Positions 31,757 to 39,084 of a stretch of 64,000 nucleotides of DNA are shown in pieces. The stretch is from contig NZ_VKDC01000002.1 of NCBI RefSeq assembly GCF_007097395.1, forward strand, positions 186,001 to 250,000, in the 5' to 3' direction. Below the pieces are notes generated by a model. It was not told where the DNA came from. It did not search any database and saw only the letters and a list, made by a program, of their open reading frames with translations. Source of the stretch: Fulvivirga sp. M361. GTDB taxonomy: Bacteria; Bacteroidota; Bacteroidia; Cytophagales; Cyclobacteriaceae. How positions within the stretch are numbered: the stretch's first letter is position 1; each line of letters opens with the position of its first letter. Position numbers and translations under genes: made by a program.

Positions 31757-34138
31757 CTATGGTTCCTCGACGGTCAACACTACTTTTTTCAGGTCTTCAT
31801 TCTTTGATGAATTACCCACCAGCAGATCAAACGATCCTGGTTCTACTACATAGTTCATATTAATATCATAGAAGGCCAATTGATCAAATGATACATCAAA
31901 TTCTATCGTTTGAGTTTCTCCAGGCGCTAAATGAATTCGTTTAAATCCTTTTAACTCTTTTACCGGTCGAGTGACAGAACTGAACTGATCACGGATGTAC
32001 AGTTGTACCACCTCATCTCCTGCCAGATCACCGGTATTTGTAACGGCTACACTCACTTTAGCCTGCCCATTCATAGCGATAGTTAACGAAGAAAGAACAG
32101 GGTCAGCTATTTTAAAGGTAGTATAACTTAAACCAAAGCCAAACGGATACAAGGCGCTCGCATGATCAAAGAGGTATCCTCTTCGCGCAGATGGTTTGTA
32201 ATTATAGTAAGCAGGGATATGACCTACTGATCTGGGGATAGATATGGGCAATTTTCCACCTGGGTTATAATCCCCAAATAAGACATCTGCTACCGCTCCA
32301 CCTGTTTCCTGGCCAAGGTACCAGCATTCAAAAACTGTTGGCACTTTACTGATCAGGTTAGTAAATGCCAGAGGTCTGCCATTGAATACAAATGCGACTA
32401 TAGGCTTGCCCGTTGCAGCTAATGCATCGATCAATTCATCTTGGAGGCCTACCATTTGCAAGTCCGTACGATCCCCCATATGTGTTGCGGACCAGGCCTC
32501 CCTGGAAGTTTGCTCGTTCCCTCCAATAGCCAGTATTACTACATCCGCCTGTCGCGCAACTTTTACGGCTTCACGAATACGTTGCCTGTCCACTTCAGGA
32601 TTCTCAAGCTCTACTGTGTCCTTAGTCCAGCCTGAAGTAGTAGTGATCTTGCAGCCTTCTGCATAAAGCACCTCCACACTTTCTCCTACCTTTTGCCGGA
32701 TGCCTTCCAACACGTTGACATTGTATTTGGGCTCACCGCTGTATCCTCCTAACAAGGTTCTTTTAGCATTTGGTCCGATCACTGCTATAGTACCGATGTC
32801 ACTTTTATTGACGGGAGCAGTATTATCTTTGTTTTGAAGTAATGTAATCGTCTTACGGGCGGCTTCCAGGGCTAATACACGGTGTGCTTCATTGCCAACT
32901 GTTATTCTGGCCTCTTCAGGATCTACATAAGGATCATCGAACAACCCTAATTTGAATTTCACGGCTAACATGGGTCCGACTAACTTATCTATGGCACTTT
33001 CTTCAATCTCACCTGCTTTGATGAGTTTTAAAAGGCTTTCATGATATACATCACGTTCTGGCAACTCAATATTTATACCTGCCGCTACAGCCAGCTTGGC
33101 AGCTGCGTCCGTATCTTTTGCCACTCCGTGTCCAAATAAGCCTTCACGGTCATTGAGCTCTCTCAGCGCATAGTAATCTGATACTACATAGCCTTGAAAA
33201 CCCCATTCTTCTCTTAACACATCTCTGAGCAACCATTGGTTGGCATGGCTTGGTACCCCGTCAATTTCATTGTACGACGCCATCAAACTGAGGGCACCGG
33301 TGTTCTTGATAATTTCTTTAAAAGGATGTAGAAATATTTCTCTGATAACACGCTCTGAATAGTTGGCAGGGCTAATGTTCATTCCTGATTCCGGTTGTCC
33401 GTGTCCGGCCAGGTGCTTTAAAGTGGCGACTAACCGTGTTTTATCTTTAAAGCTGCCATCACCTTGAAACCCCTTAACAGCGGCAATACCAATCTGAGCA
33501 GCCAGGTGAGGATCTTCTCCATACGTTTCTTCTACCCTTCCCCAACGTGGTTCTCTTGCTACATCTACCACCGGGGTAAGCGCCTGATGCGCACCTAAAG
33601 ATCGGGTTTCAAGTGCCACCATCGTGTATAAACGTTCCACCAGGTCCGTATCAAACGTAGCAGCCAATCCTATAGGCTGGGAAAAACTAGTAGCTTCTTT
33701 ACCAGCCTGACCATGTAAACACTCTTCATGAAAAACAACAGGAATACCCAAACGGGTTTCTTCTATAAAATACTTCTGAACGCTGTTCGTAAGCCTGGCC
33801 GTTTCCCATGGCATTAACCCACCGTTAACATCACTTGGTCGTCCTACCTGACCGAGGCCATGCGGAAAATTTTCCTTGGTAGCTGTAGCATCAAAATCAA
33901 AATTCTCATCAAGCAAAAGCGTTTTGGTATTCCAGGCACATTCCATTTGCGCTACTTTTTCTTCAATAGTCATTAAAGAAAGCAGGTTGTCTACTCTTGC
34001 AGAAACTTCAGCAGACTTGTCCTTATAAACGGGCATGCCTGAATTCAAATTTTCTGAAGTACAGCCCAAGGCTATCAAGCCCACAAGGAGACAAAAGCCG
34101 CGTTGGAAGAATAGTTTTTTTATGTTGTTGATTTTCAT
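31757..34138 (-). CDS. bglX: Glycoside hydrolase family 3 beta-glucosidase lipoprotein
   Basis: The protein is a lipoprotein: LLVGLIALGC places the lipidated Cys at residue 26 of the chosen start (ATG 34138; the frame opens to 34201). It contains the GH3 N-terminal barrel with LVATLKHLAGHG and the catalytic nucleophile Asp321 in GYVVSDYYAL, the C-terminal alpha/beta domain (IGPNAKRTLLGGYSG), and the Fn3-like end (VVQLYIRDQFSSVTRPVKEL). It should hydrolyse beta-glucosides in the periplasm or at the surface. A Nudix-type regulator is divergent, and one operator copy lies 18 bp before its start. Confidence 0.9.
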   Translation of the reverse strand: MKINNIKKLFFQRGFCLLVGLIALGCTSENLNSGMPVYKDKSAEVSARVDNLLSLMTIEEKVAQMECAWNTKTLLLDENFDFDATATKENFPHGLGQVGRPSDVNGGLMPWETARLTNSVQKYFIEETRLGIPVVFHEECLHGQAGKEATSFSQPIGLAATFDTDLVERLYTMVALETRSLGAHQALTPVVDVAREPRWGRVEETYGEDPHLAAQIGIAAVKGFQGDGSFKDKTRLVATLKHLAGHGQPESGMNISPANYSERVIREIFLHPFKEIIKNTGALSLMASYNEIDGVPSHANQWLLRDVLREEWGFQGYVVSDYYALRELNDREGLFGHGVAKDTDAAAKLAVAAGINIELPERDVYHESLLKLIKAGEIEESAIDKLVGPMLAVKFKLGLFDDPYVDPEEARITVGNEAHRVLALEAARKTITLLQNKDNTAPVNKSDIGTIAVIGPNAKRTLLGGYSGEPKYNVNVLEGIRQKVGESVEVLYAEGCKITTTSGWTKDTVELENPEVDRQRIREAVKVARQADVVILAIGGNEQTSREAWSATHMGDRTDLQMVGLQDELIDALAATGKPIVAFVFNGRPLAFTNLISKVPTVFECWYLGQETGGAVADVLFGDYNPGGKLPISIPRSVGHIPAYYNYKPSARRGYLFDHASALYPFGFGLSYTTFKIADPVLSSLTIAMNGQAKVSVAVTNTGDLAGDEVVQLYIRDQFSSVTRPVKELKGFKRIHLAPGETQTIEFDVSFDQLAFYDINMNYVVEPGSFDLLVGNSSKNEDLKKVVLTVEEP

Positions 34139-34155
34139 AATTACTAATTTATAAC

Positions 34156-34176
34156 TTATTGTAAAATTTACAATAA
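34156..34176. promoter_or_regulatory. Candidate operator 1 (TTATTGTA-N5-TACAATAA)
   Basis: The arms are exact reverse complements, and the symmetry extends to 25 bp (34154-34178). It lies 18 bp before the GH3 start codon, overlapping its probable 5' UTR or promoter, so a bound protein would block transcription. The same motif recurs at 34486. Confidence 0.55.
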
Positions 34177-34485
34177 GTATTTTAATTAAATTTGTTCCCA
34201 TATTTAAATTTACTTTGGCCTGAAGAGAGTTTATAACGCTTATTGATTATTTAAACAACTTACCATCAACACCATATCAAAACCGATTAAAGCAAGTCTG
34301 CATACAGAACAAAATATTGCAGAAAATTATAAATTTGATCCAGATTAATTGGTAATCTCCATGGGTATTTCCTAAATAAGTATCCAGGGACATTCTCTGC
34401 TTCCACTGACATTTCCTTCAAAAGGTCCGTAAGGCTTCTTCTATCATCATCGGATTATAAGGCCTGTTCATAATAAAAACCCTTC

Positions 34486-34506
34486 TTACTGTATTATATA
34501 CAATAA
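34486..34506. promoter_or_regulatory. Candidate operator 2 (TTACTGTA-N5-TACAATAA)
   Basis: It has the same 8-5-8 layout and the same right arm as the site at 34156; only one base of the left arm differs. It lies 122 bp before the Nudix regulator gene, suggesting autoregulation together with control of the GH3 gene. Confidence 0.55.
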
Positions 34507-34627: not shown

Positions 34628-35314
34628 ATGGCAGAGGAAAGCAACAAGCTACAAGAGCTTTCAATTGATTGCGTAATCTTCGGGTTTGAAGATCATCAAC
34701 TAAAAATATTGCTCTATCAACGGGCAATTGAACCAGAAATGGATCAGTGGGCATTACCCGGTGGTTTCATCAAAATTGATGAAGACCTGGATCGTTCGGC
34801 TTCACGAATACTAAAAGAAGTAACAGGAGTAAATAACATTTACATGCAACAGATCAATGCCTTCGGCGCTGTAAACCGTTATCCTCAAAAGCGTGTGATC
34901 ACTATAGGCTTTTATGCCTTGATCAATCCTGGCAACTACAACATTGTGCCCGGAGTAGGTGCAAAAGCTGCCCAATGGTTTGATATTGCTCAAATACCGG
35001 TATTAAGCTTTGACCACAATGAGATCTACTTATACGCACTTAACATACTTAGAAAAAAGGTAAGGTATGAGCCCATAGGCTTTGAGCTTCTTCCGGAGAA
35101 ATTTACCTTAACGTTAATCCAGCGGCTGTATGAAGCTGTTCTGGGAATTGAATTCGATGTGAGGAACTTTCGAAAAAAACTATTGAAGATGAACCTGTTG
35201 ATCAAATTGCCGGAAAAACAAGAAGGCGTCGCACACCGCGCCGCCAACTTGTATAAATTCGATAAAAAAATCTACAATGAACTCAAAGGAAAAGGGTTCA
35301 TGTTTGATCTCTGA
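34628..35314 (+). CDS. Nudix-family transcriptional regulator (NrtR/AraR-like)
   Basis: The 228-residue protein has an N-terminal Nudix fold and a C-terminal winged-helix region (about residues 150-225: FTLTLIQRLYEAVLGIEFDV, RNFRKKLLKMNLL). In the Nudix box the consensus REUxEExGU reads RILKEVTGV, so two catalytic glutamates are missing and hydrolysis is unlikely. This is the pattern of Nudix-related regulators that sense sugars or nucleotides in Bacteroidetes (for example AraR of Bacteroides thetaiotaomicron). It faces the GH3 glucosidase gene, and two matching palindromes lie between them. Confidence 0.85.
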   Translation: MAEESNKLQELSIDCVIFGFEDHQLKILLYQRAIEPEMDQWALPGGFIKIDEDLDRSASRILKEVTGVNNIYMQQINAFGAVNRYPQKRVITIGFYALINPGNYNIVPGVGAKAAQWFDIAQIPVLSFDHNEIYLYALNILRKKVRYEPIGFELLPEKFTLTLIQRLYEAVLGIEFDVRNFRKKLLKMNLLIKLPEKQEGVAHRAANLYKFDKKIYNELKGKGFMFDL

Positions 35315-36478: not shown

Positions 36479-38068
36479 CTAGCCGTAAATATCCAATAGA
36501 GATAACAGATCGGCAATAGTATTGGCTTCTTCTTTTGGCTTATCTTTTCGCCATCTTTTTATTCGGGGAAAACGCAACGCTACACCTGACTTGTGCCGGG
36601 TAGATTTATTGATCCCTTCAAAGGCTATTTCAAATACAAGTTCCGGGGTCACACTGCGTACAGGCCCAAATCTTTCAATGGTATTTTTCTTTACATACCG
36701 GTCTACTTCATGGATTTCAGCATCCGTCAGCCCAGAATAAGCTTTAGTAAAAGGTACTAGCTGATCACCATCCCAGACGGCAAACGTGTAGTCTGTATAT
36801 AAATTTGCCCGGCGTCCATGCCCTCTCATAGCATAGATCATTACAGCATCAATGGTCAGTGGCTCTACTTTCCATTTCCACCAATCGCCTTTTTTTCTGC
36901 CACTTCTATACGTTGAGTCCAGACGTTTTAGCATAATGCCCTCACTATAATACTCTCTTGATCTTTCCTGTTCTATGCCTAACTCGTGCCACGAAGAAAA
37001 TACTACTTCATCAGATATTTTTAGTGACTCACTTGAAAACTCCTTTACGATGGATGCCAAGCGTTCTCTTCTCTTTTTCAGTGGCCATTCGCGTGTGTCT
37101 TTAGCTTCCCATTCCAGCAGATCATACGCTTTAAAAATAACCGGAGATTTTTCTAAAATGCCTTTTGTGAGATTTTTACGCCCAATACGTGTTTGTAACT
37201 GAGCAAATGGCAACGGTTTGCCTTCTTTAAAGGGTAATATCTCTCCATCTATTACTGTTCCATGCGGCAGAATACTTTTGAATTCATGGTATTCAGGATA
37301 TTTATCAGTAACTAGTTCTTCTCCTCTCGACCAGACGTATAGTTCATCATTTCTAATGATTATCTGTCCCCTAATACCATCCCATTTTCGTTCTGCCAAC
37401 CAATCTGAATGATTTCCCAGCGAACCCGGGGCATCCTCCAGGGCATAGGCCAGGTAAAAAGGATATGGCCTGGAATCGTCTTCTTTAGGGTCTTCTGAAA
37501 GAATGAGGTCAGCAAAGGTGGTGGTATCCGGGGTCCAATTGCCCATCAACCTATGCGCTAATACATTTTCGTCAAGACCCGTACTTTTGGCCAATGCACG
37601 CGTCATTAATTTTTGCGACACCCCCATTCGGAAACCACCCGTGAGTAGCTTGTTAAATACAAATCGCTCTACCGCCGATAAACAAGACCAGGCTTGTTTC
37701 ATCTTTGCTTTCTTCTCTTCTTCTCCATCTTGAGTCATTGATTTTATAAACCAGATCCAATAAGAAAGACCTTCTTCAGACTGTGAAGAAGGCTCAGGTA
37801 AGATCAATGCAATAGTTTCAGCTAAATCACCTACTACATGATAAGATTCTTCAAAAAGCCAGAAGGGCACTCCACTAAGTTCCGCGGCCCATTGTTTGAT
37901 CATAGTGCTATTGACAGGTCTTTTTGGCCGCCTATGAGATAGAATAGCGATGGTCCATAATTTGTCCTGATCATCTACTTCACTAAAATAGGATGCCAAA
38001 GACTCTACTTTTACCAGTGTTTTGGTGGTTTGATCAAGTTGTGTAAAAAGTGCCGCAAACCGTTTCAT
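36479..38068 (-). CDS. ATP-dependent DNA ligase (ligase-associated cassette)
   Basis: The 529-residue ligase has nucleotidyltransferase motif I ERKWDGIRGQ with the adenylated Lys228, motif III-like GTVIDGEILPF, and motif V region EGIMLKRLDSTYRSGRKKGDWWKWK. An N-terminal DNA-binding domain (residues 1-200) precedes the catalytic core and an OB domain follows, as in archaeal/eukaryotic-type ligases. It seals nicks during repair. Its start overlaps the exonuclease stop by 4 bp. The helicase and PdeM of the cassette are elsewhere in this window. Confidence 0.92.
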   Translation of the reverse strand: MKRFAALFTQLDQTTKTLVKVESLASYFSEVDDQDKLWTIAILSHRRPKRPVNSTMIKQWAAELSGVPFWLFEESYHVVGDLAETIALILPEPSSQSEEGLSYWIWFIKSMTQDGEEEKKAKMKQAWSCLSAVERFVFNKLLTGGFRMGVSQKLMTRALAKSTGLDENVLAHRLMGNWTPDTTTFADLILSEDPKEDDSRPYPFYLAYALEDAPGSLGNHSDWLAERKWDGIRGQIIIRNDELYVWSRGEELVTDKYPEYHEFKSILPHGTVIDGEILPFKEGKPLPFAQLQTRIGRKNLTKGILEKSPVIFKAYDLLEWEAKDTREWPLKKRRERLASIVKEFSSESLKISDEVVFSSWHELGIEQERSREYYSEGIMLKRLDSTYRSGRKKGDWWKWKVEPLTIDAVMIYAMRGHGRRANLYTDYTFAVWDGDQLVPFTKAYSGLTDAEIHEVDRYVKKNTIERFGPVRSVTPELVFEIAFEGINKSTRHKSGVALRFPRIKRWRKDKPKEEANTIADLLSLLDIYG

Positions 38069-39084
38069 ACTTCTTCCTCTTTCTCGGTACTCTCACCTAT
38101 CTCCGCCAATTCTCCTTCAAACTGTGTTTCTACAATACCCGCACTAACTCCTCTTTCATTAAGCCATTTACTAAAAATAGATGTATATCCATGTGTAACA
38201 TAAACTTGTTCTGCTTCACACAGATCTATAGCTGTATTTAGCCCTTTCCAATCTGCATGATCTGACAGTACAAAACCACGATCTACCGAGCGTCGCCTTC
38301 TGGCTCCTCTAAGGTTCATCCATCCGGAAGCTGAACCTATAGAGTAGGGACTGAATTTTTTTATCCAGGACGAGCCTACTGCCGAGGGAGTAGCAATCAC
38401 AATATTTCCAATGTACTCCTCTTTAGGGATTTCAGCTGTAACCCTAATAGTATCTTTCAGCAGAATGTTCTGCTGTCTAAGTATTTCATTTACATTTTCT
38501 ATGGCCCCGTGCGTATATATTTTCCCAATGCTATCATCCAGATTTTGAATAATCCGCTGTGCTTTTCCTAACGCATAACCGGTAAGAATGGTAGTCTTTC
38601 GTAATGCCTGATTCTGTCTCCACCAGTTATTGATCTCCTGAAAAACCTCAATCTGTGGCCTCCACTCATAGATAGGCAACCCAAAAGTAGATTCAGTAAT
38701 GAATGTATGACATTTGATAGATTCAAAAGTTTCCGTAAGGCCGTCTTCTTCCAGTTTGTAGTCTCCAGAGACTACCCAAACCTCTCCTTTATACTCTAAT
38801 CGAATTTGGGCGGAGCCAACAATATGTCCCGCCGGATGAAAGGAAATTTTGACTCCATTGATCGTATGTATCTCGCCAAAACCTGTAGTTTGAAGGTTTA
38901 CCTTTCCAAGCCGATATTTGATAACGGGTGCAGCAGCAGCAGTACATAAATAATGCTTATGCCCCCATCTACTATGGTCCGCATGACCATGCGTGATCAA
39001 AGCCTTATCAACGGGTTTCCATGGATCAATAAAAATAGCTGCTTGTGGGCAGTATATCCCACGATCGGTGAACTCAAGAAGCAT
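38065..39084 (-). CDS. Ligase-associated DNA damage response exonuclease (MBL fold)
   Basis: The 339-residue beta-lactamase-fold nuclease has the HxHxDH motif HGHADHSRWGH and later metal ligands in HPAGHIVGSAQI and GDYKLEEDGL. The C-terminus HADWKGLNTAIDLCEAEQVY and VTHGYTSIFSKWLNERG resembles the SNM1/CPSF nuclease core. It precedes the ligase and overlaps it by 4 bp, so the pair is one transcription unit. In the family it is thought to trim DNA ends before ligation. Confidence 0.88.
   Translation of the reverse strand: MLLEFTDRGIYCPQAAIFIDPWKPVDKALITHGHADHSRWGHKHYLCTAAAAPVIKYRLGKVNLQTTGFGEIHTINGVKISFHPAGHIVGSAQIRLEYKGEVWVVSGDYKLEEDGLTETFESIKCHTFITESTFGLPIYEWRPQIEVFQEINNWWRQNQALRKTTILTGYALGKAQRIIQNLDDSIGKIYTHGAIENVNEILRQQNILLKDTIRVTAEIPKEEYIGNIVIATPSAVGSSWIKKFSPYSIGSASGWMNLRGARRRRSVDRGFVLSDHADWKGLNTAIDLCEAEQVYVTHGYTSIFSKWLNERGVSAGIVETQFEGELAEIGESTEKEEEV

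Follow-up and report, generated by a model that had tools for sequence, protein, structure and literature searches.

A probable XylR-type NrtR-family regulator with two predicted operators, a candidate xylose regulon, and a helix-operator correlation among its relatives

We analyzed a 64,000-nucleotide stretch (the window) of an 8.13-Mb draft genome (G000; C61:186001-250000) and found that a GH3 glycosidase gene and a gene for a Nudix-like regulator, P0001, are separated by a gap that holds two matching palindromes. We consider it likely that P0001 is a XylR-type repressor that binds both palindromes, governs a xylose regulon, and is released by xylose. We prefer xylose to cellobiose or ADP-ribose because similar sites precede xylBA and a transketolase gene, because P0001 belongs to a xyl-linked clade, and because the GH3 protein has beta-xylosidases as relatives. 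The features of the locus are as follows.

31757..34138, minus strand: P0002, GH3 glycosidase, probable beta-xylosidase-type lipoprotein (Pfam, best solved matches)
34154..34178, no strand: operator 1, predicted (palindrome, scans, helix-operator covariation)
34486..34506, no strand: operator 2, predicted (palindrome, window scan, helix table)
34628..35314, plus strand: P0001, XylR-type NrtR-family regulator with a Nudix-like sensor domain and a winged helix (Pfam, fold matches, tree)
35159..35188, plus strand: P0001 recognition helix, codons 178-187, beginning with V178 (BtAraR K179) (AF2 helix, BtAraR alignment, covariation)

An earlier note on this DNA had described two matching 8-N5-8 palindromes between the GH3 and Nudix genes, and we found both. 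Operator 1 is perfect over 25 bp, as claimed, with 12-bp arms around one central base (34154-34178); its core (34156-34176) is TTATTGTAAAATTTACAATAA, that is, TTATTGTA-N5-TACAATAA. Operator 2 (34486-34506) is TTACTGTATTATATACAATAA, or TTACTGTA-N5-TACAATAA, and carries the single mismatch that had been reported, in one asymmetric pair. The two centers are 330 bp apart, and we considered a DNA loop between the operators as a possibility. The spacings needed a small correction, from 18 to 17 bases between operator 1 and the likely GH3 start codon (34138, minus strand) and from 122 to 121 between operator 2 and the ATG of the regulator gene (34628). The longest GH3 open reading frame starts at 34201 and would contain operator 1; the start at 34138 is our choice, since what looks like a lipoprotein signal, MKINNIKKLFFQRG...LIALGC (read by eye), begins at that codon.

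The gap is 489 bp long with 29.7% G+C. We found that TTAYTGTA-N5-TACARTAA occurs exactly twice in it and in none of 3000 dinucleotide shuffles (2 versus 0). Any 8-5-8 dyad with at most one mismatch was observed twice and expected 0.59 times, so the signal lies in the shared sequence and not in symmetry alone. At up to three mismatches, scanning the window gave 8 matches, a number that 7 of 100 shuffles also reached, and so no significant excess. TAnnTTTG is the Bacteroidetes-type promoter box. Near the four intergenic sites of this genome (see below), we found no such box at the GH3 gene or xylB, one at the regulator but far from its operator, and two at the transketolase gene, with no consistent pattern.

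P0001 is 228 amino acids long and matches the Pfam models NUDIX (38.1 bits), NrtR_WHD (87.5 bits), and AraR_C (63.8 bits), all above cut-off. With 44% identity to BtAraR, these matches bear out the suggestion that the Nudix-fold protein is an AraR-like regulator. The best fold matches of its AF2 model (mean pLDDT, 74.0; under 50 at residues 1-9, 74-84, and 86-94) are BtAraR structures (5dd4: E, 5.2e-19; TM, 0.75). The Nudix box reads G46-x5-E52-x7-R60-I-L-K-E64-V-T-G67-V, and both sequence and alignment confirmed the reported loss of two catalytic Glu residues, which are replaced by I61 and V65. The alignment also showed that the arabinose ligands of BtAraR, Arg34, Arg86, and His131, are kept as R32, R84, and H130. 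The accessible text of PMC4666351 describes six base-contacting residues as absolutely conserved in AraR; four of the six are kept in P0001, and K179 and K204 are replaced by V178 and H203.

We then compared recognition helices with upstream palindromes across 222 regulators, which form 161 clusters at 80% identity. Each regulator was represented by its top-ranking dyad up to 400 bp upstream that had GT at -5/-4 and AC at +4/+5, with -7/-6 left free; P0001 was counted with operator 2, the only one of its two within 400 bp. A palindrome in the same register was found in 64 of the 161 clusters, compared with a mean of 2.3 and a maximum of 7 in 30 rounds of shuffled upstream sequence and with 5 of 161 in a control of 440 bp inside genes. 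By this criterion, no palindrome was found in the other 97 clusters. The half-sites at -7/-6 differed between helix classes:

K/R-R helices (site in 33 of 102 clusters): GT 41, AT 10, GC 6, TT 4, others 5
D-R helices (9 of 14): AC 11, AT 4, GC 2, CC 1
K-P/S helices (14 of 30): TA 18, TG 4, CA 2, AA 2, TT 2
V/T-R helices (4 of 5): TT 7, CT 1
Other helices (4 of 10): AT 3, AA 3, TT 1, AC 1

Under classes that were defined after inspection of the helix/operator table, and with statistics that ignore relatedness, the mutual information between helix class and -7/-6 was 1.37 bits and did not exceed 0.81 in 5000 permutations. TT stood in both halves in 3 of 4 V/T clusters and in 2 of 60 others (Fisher P = 9e-4, classes set post hoc), and in at least one half in 4 of 4 and 5 of 60, respectively. 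The V/T rows lie at three separate places in the tree (P0001; L157, L164, L233, and L235; L308 with L261, the last of which has a V/T helix and no dyad that we could find), which counters the objection that kinship explains the pattern. The helix DVRNFRKK occurs with a TTATTGTA site in L308 as well, which belongs to another clade and is 49% identical to P0001. In the crystal structure of BtAraR, according to the accessible text of PMC4666351, K179 contacts G7; this contact falls at the covarying base, and P0001 has V178 in place of K179.

As judged from this covariation, both palindromes are very probably operators of the neighboring P0001, in line with the earlier proposal that they belong to a Nudix-type regulator. 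They could instead be sites of another regulator, chance matches, or structural repeats with which the Nudix protein has nothing to do. The AT-rich gap and the 0.59 dyads expected in it leave some room for this reading. It is nevertheless very improbable, given that the NrtR-family helix covaries with a palindrome of the same register over 64 clusters, that the same helix and TTATTGTA recur together in L308, and that none of the 3000 shuffles of the gap held the motif.

We lean, with some reserve, toward a more general statement: that sugar-sensing NrtR-family repressors share a short code whereby the first helix residues set -7/-6 (K/R plus R, mostly GT; D plus R, mostly AC; K plus P/S, mostly TA; V/T plus R, TT), that the switch from other helices to V/T with TTATTGTA took place separately on several branches with the regulon sites following, and that operators and regulons could be predicted from the protein alone. 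If the code holds, V178 of the P0001 type would prefer TTATTGTA operators and a K-type residue would prefer TTAGTGTA. Such a rule is unusually clear, can be tested directly, and concerns sugar regulators of a widespread family; the same operator word recurs on separate branches.

Across the genome, TTAYTGTA-N5-TACARTAA had three exact places (0.023 expected) and two with one mismatch (1.0 expected), both under a first-order model. Two of these five places lie in the window. The others are the following.

C83:58179: 27 bp before xylB-xylA-sugar porter, intergenic, at most one mismatch
C96:2262: 56 bp before transketolase, intergenic, at most one mismatch
C61:4779: inside an open reading frame, at most one mismatch

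Thus, four places are intergenic, two of them outside the window. Chance palindromes were rejected on the shuffles and these scans. A scan at two mismatches gave noise (30 places in all versus 63 for the reversed control). Among the two-mismatch matches, 22 of 25 lie inside open reading frames, and the 3 intergenic ones have no clear xylose link; two of the 22 precede what may be starts of SusD-like genes, by 17 and 53 bp (N termini read by eye), and are possible sites. TTATTGTA-N5-TACAATAA at up to one mismatch has 5 places in this genome (reversed control, 1) and 0 to 2 in each of 14 congeners (reversed control, 0 to 3).

The xylA product at the C83 site passes its NCBIfam equivalog cut-off. 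For its neighbors and the C96 gene, the top NCBIfam names are xylulokinase, D-xylose transporter XylE, and transketolase, with scores below the equivalog cut-offs. The earlier note had asked whether motif hits cluster near other glycosidase genes; the other intergenic sites precede xylB-xylA-porter and transketolase instead. From the sites, the candidate regulon would comprise the GH3 gene, the gene for P0001, xylB-xylA-porter, and transketolase. What began as a pair of sites becomes a defined candidate regulon in a Bacteroidota genome that has been little studied, and the likely effector moves to xylose.

P0002 has the Pfam domains GH3 N, GH3 C, and Fn3-like. Its NCBIfam scores leave its type undecided, since none passes (beta-xylosidase, 616 with a cut-off of 1350; xylosidase/arabinosidase, 584 with 1050; BglX, 581 with 666). 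Among solved structures, P0002 matches beta-xylosidase 7zb3 (617 bits) and xylosidase 8c7f (615 bits) best, and beta-glucosidases rank further down. P0002 is therefore better called a probable beta-xylosidase type, by these matches, than the glucosidase it was taken for. This bears on the idea that P0001 regulates cellobiose or glucose use or senses ADP-ribose, the effectors proposed earlier. The GH3 family does include beta-glucosidases, BglX comes nearest to its own cut-off for P0002, and the top NCBIfam match of P0001 is the ADP-ribose NtrR model (NF050029). However, P0001 scores 141.7 bits against that model, far below the equivalog cut-off of 400, and the sites before xylB-xylA-porter and transketolase, the xylA/xylB-linked clade, and the best solved match of the GH3 protein all point to xylose. 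We regard cellobiose, glucose, or ADP-ribose sensing as hardly credible and rejected it on the regulon and the clade.

Counting this genome, 108 of 148 in the family have homologues of P0001 at an E value of 1e-20 or better. We took gene contexts from 27 of the best-scoring ones and found xylA in 25 and xylB in 22. In a tree of 142 rows, P0001 falls in a clade of 58 (support, 98/88), of which 43 have xylA/xylB neighbors; 3 xyl-linked rows lie outside it. Its nearest group in the tree, of Ignavibacteria and Cytophagales rows, is weak (92/75). Taken with the regulon, membership in the 58-row clade makes D-xylose most likely the sugar of P0001, which would be an NrtR-family repressor of the XylR type. 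Two congeners (L075 and L076) have transketolase in the same context as the regulator, and in L075 xylB, xylA, and transketolase follow one another and xylB is preceded by a TTATAGTCA-type site; this gene order and site support transketolase as a regulon member here.

Alternatively, P0001 could bind the palindromes as its operators but respond to L-arabinose, or to both pentoses, as an AraR-like sensor set over xylose genes. P0001 keeps the arabinose-binding residues of BtAraR, Arg32 included, as in AraR, and most xylA/xylB-linked family homologues have His at this position. The five closest congeneric homologues, all with a K-P or K-S helix, are of the His32 kind (L046, L047, L098, and L099, checked directly; L100, likewise in the same table). 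Since P0001 lacks the His32 of most xyl-linked homologues, arabinose keeps a place among the candidates. Against it, no arabinose genes were seen at any of the four intergenic sites, and members of the clade with Arg32 and a K-R helix also adjoin xylA/xylB (L151, L152, L231, L234, L237, and L300). Moreover, an Arg corresponds to Arg32 in the ADP-ribose sensor SoNrtR too, so this residue is no guide to the sugar. On balance, we think an arabinose response unlikely and retain xylose as the probable signal.

Strict conservation of the motif of the window in relatives was rejected: TTATTGTA-N5-TACAATAA without a mismatch occurs in none of the 147 other family genomes (1 of 148 with this one counted). 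Close homologues carry TTATAGTCA-N3-TGACTATAA instead, intergenic in 23 of 27 contexts at up to four mismatches and in 19 of 27 at up to two, raw counts for a motif drawn from the same 27 contexts in which it was counted. In whole family genomes at up to one mismatch, it has 14 places in 13 of 148 genomes, and the reversed control has a hit in 10 genomes; because the motif is only slightly commoner than its control genome-wide, it is the location that counts. In 17 of 27 contexts, a TTATAGTCA-type site lies between the regulator or gap and xylB, 9 to 77 bp from the xylB start (longest-ORF starts), a spacing that looks like that of a repressor.

The earlier note had made conservation of the motif upstream of orthologous GH3/Nudix pairs decisive for the operator reading. 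The outcome was mixed. The nearest homologue that we found (60% identity, L124/L150) is divergent from a GH3 gene whose product is 54% identical to P0002, and we found no dyad of this register in L150 beside the GH3 gene, nor in L254, another GH3/Nudix pair. In contrast, the L308 locus includes a GH3 gene, and a TTATTGTA site precedes its regulator by 42 bp. In our view the condition asks too much, since the operator varies along with the recognition helix. In the phylum, TTATTGTA-N5-TACAATAW occurs in 5 of 395 genomes, at three places here and at one in each of the other four, whose flanks showed no clear xylose link.

If V/T helices read TTATTGTA, extra TTATTGTA sites would be expected in genomes with a V/T regulator. 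All five such genomes do, with 16 places at up to one mismatch versus 1 for the reversed pattern. Five of the 16 were already known as regulator-linked (L327, L333, L334, L335, and L336), and we inspected the flanks of 10 of the other 11. In Adhaeribacter rhizoryzae, TTATTGTA precedes two xylan-type genes: a GH43 gene, for which the solved structure 5glk (GH43) ranks first and 4mlg (beta-xylosidase) second, and a GH8 gene, for which 6g00 (GH8) ranks ahead of Rex8A exo-oligoxylanase. Two places precede SusC-like genes (L331 and L338) and one a ThuA-like gene (L339); L328 has no start near its place, and at L332 the start is 412 bp away. Not every TTATTGTA place in these genomes is explained by xylose. 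In the sister genomes G325 and G425, an exact TTATTGTA palindrome (L326 and L329, both at 1501-1521) lies 18 to 19 bp before an AhpC/TSA-type peroxiredoxin gene, which by its site is a possible, unexpected regulon member. The genome of L308 has a second TTATTGTA site (L330) before a GH81-like gene; with its GH3 and GH81-like genes, this genome may use the same operator for another sugar.

We propose that a P0001 dimer would bind the two 21-bp palindromes through the winged helix at its C terminus. V178, the first residue of the recognition helix, would go with T at -7 (half-site TTGT), as K179 of BtAraR goes with G (GTGT). Sitting close to where the GH3 gene, xylB-xylA-porter, transketolase, and the regulator gene itself begin, P0001 would keep these genes off. 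Xylose or an early product would fill the catalytically dead Nudix pocket, and the sugar-bound dimer would change shape, as BtAraR does with arabinose, and leave the DNA. Cleavage of xylo-oligosaccharides, uptake, isomerization, and phosphorylation of xylose, and a pentose-phosphate step would then be induced together. That P0001 binds DNA, represses these genes and its own, and responds to D-xylose is inferred from the sites here and elsewhere in the genome, the fold class, the clade, and the covariation, all of which are seen in the sequence.

The same genome encodes two further NrtR-family paralogues outside the window. One (L023, 9379-10089, plus strand, from C74; helix DDRNFRKK) has its own palindrome, TAAACGTATATTTTACGTTTA, 66 bp upstream, is divergent from genes for a sodium/solute symporter and a galactokinase, and is a candidate galactose regulator. 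The other (L022, 8781-9461, minus strand, from C68) lies beside kduI, kduD, and further uronate-type genes and is a candidate regulator of pectin or galacturonate use; its upstream region has no palindrome by the dyad criterion. Within the window, at 36479-39084, an ATP-dependent DNA ligase gene adjoins one for a ligase-associated DNA damage response exonuclease (TIGR04120 and TIGR04122, above cut-off).

Helix-operator correlation has been applied to the NrtR family before: the accessible part of PMC5045206 cites a residue-base correlation analysis of NrtR regulators and names residues 1, 2, and 6 of helix-turn-helix recognition helices. Among the matches listed, with subscription literature mostly outside the scope, we found neither this operator nor a code linking helix and site in sugar regulators of Bacteroidota as the subject of a paper. 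Published work already covers the AraR/XylR branch of NrtR (PMC3878776 and PMC4666351, accessible parts), and P0001 is an addition to this known family. Those parts give BT0791 of Bacteroides thetaiotaomicron as XylR, an NrtR-family protein predicted for xylose, and report that xylR clusters with xylose genes. Compared by description only, P0001 resembles BT0791 as a Nudix-like regulator linked to xylA/xylB with predicted control; unlike BT0791, it adjoins a GH3 gene and not xylBA, and a transketolase gene carries a site. NrtR of Shewanella oneidensis (3GZ5, 3GZ6, and 3GZ8) has the same domain order and fold (E, 1.5e-11) and an impaired Nudix box. The accessible text of PMC4666351 describes it as ADP-ribose responsive with targets in NAD metabolism; in contrast, the predicted targets of P0001 are not in NAD metabolism, and P0001 fails the NtrR equivalog cut-off. 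The same text reports that L-arabinose releases BtAraR and that D-xylose impairs its binding only partly. P0001 shares with BtAraR (BT0354; 5BS6, 5DD4, 5DDG, and 5DEQ) 44% identity, the best fold match, the 21-bp operator register, the ligand residues, and four of six base contacts. It differs in K179 to V178 and K204 to H203, in a half-site of TTGT and not GTGT, and in having predicted targets in xylose and not arabinose use.
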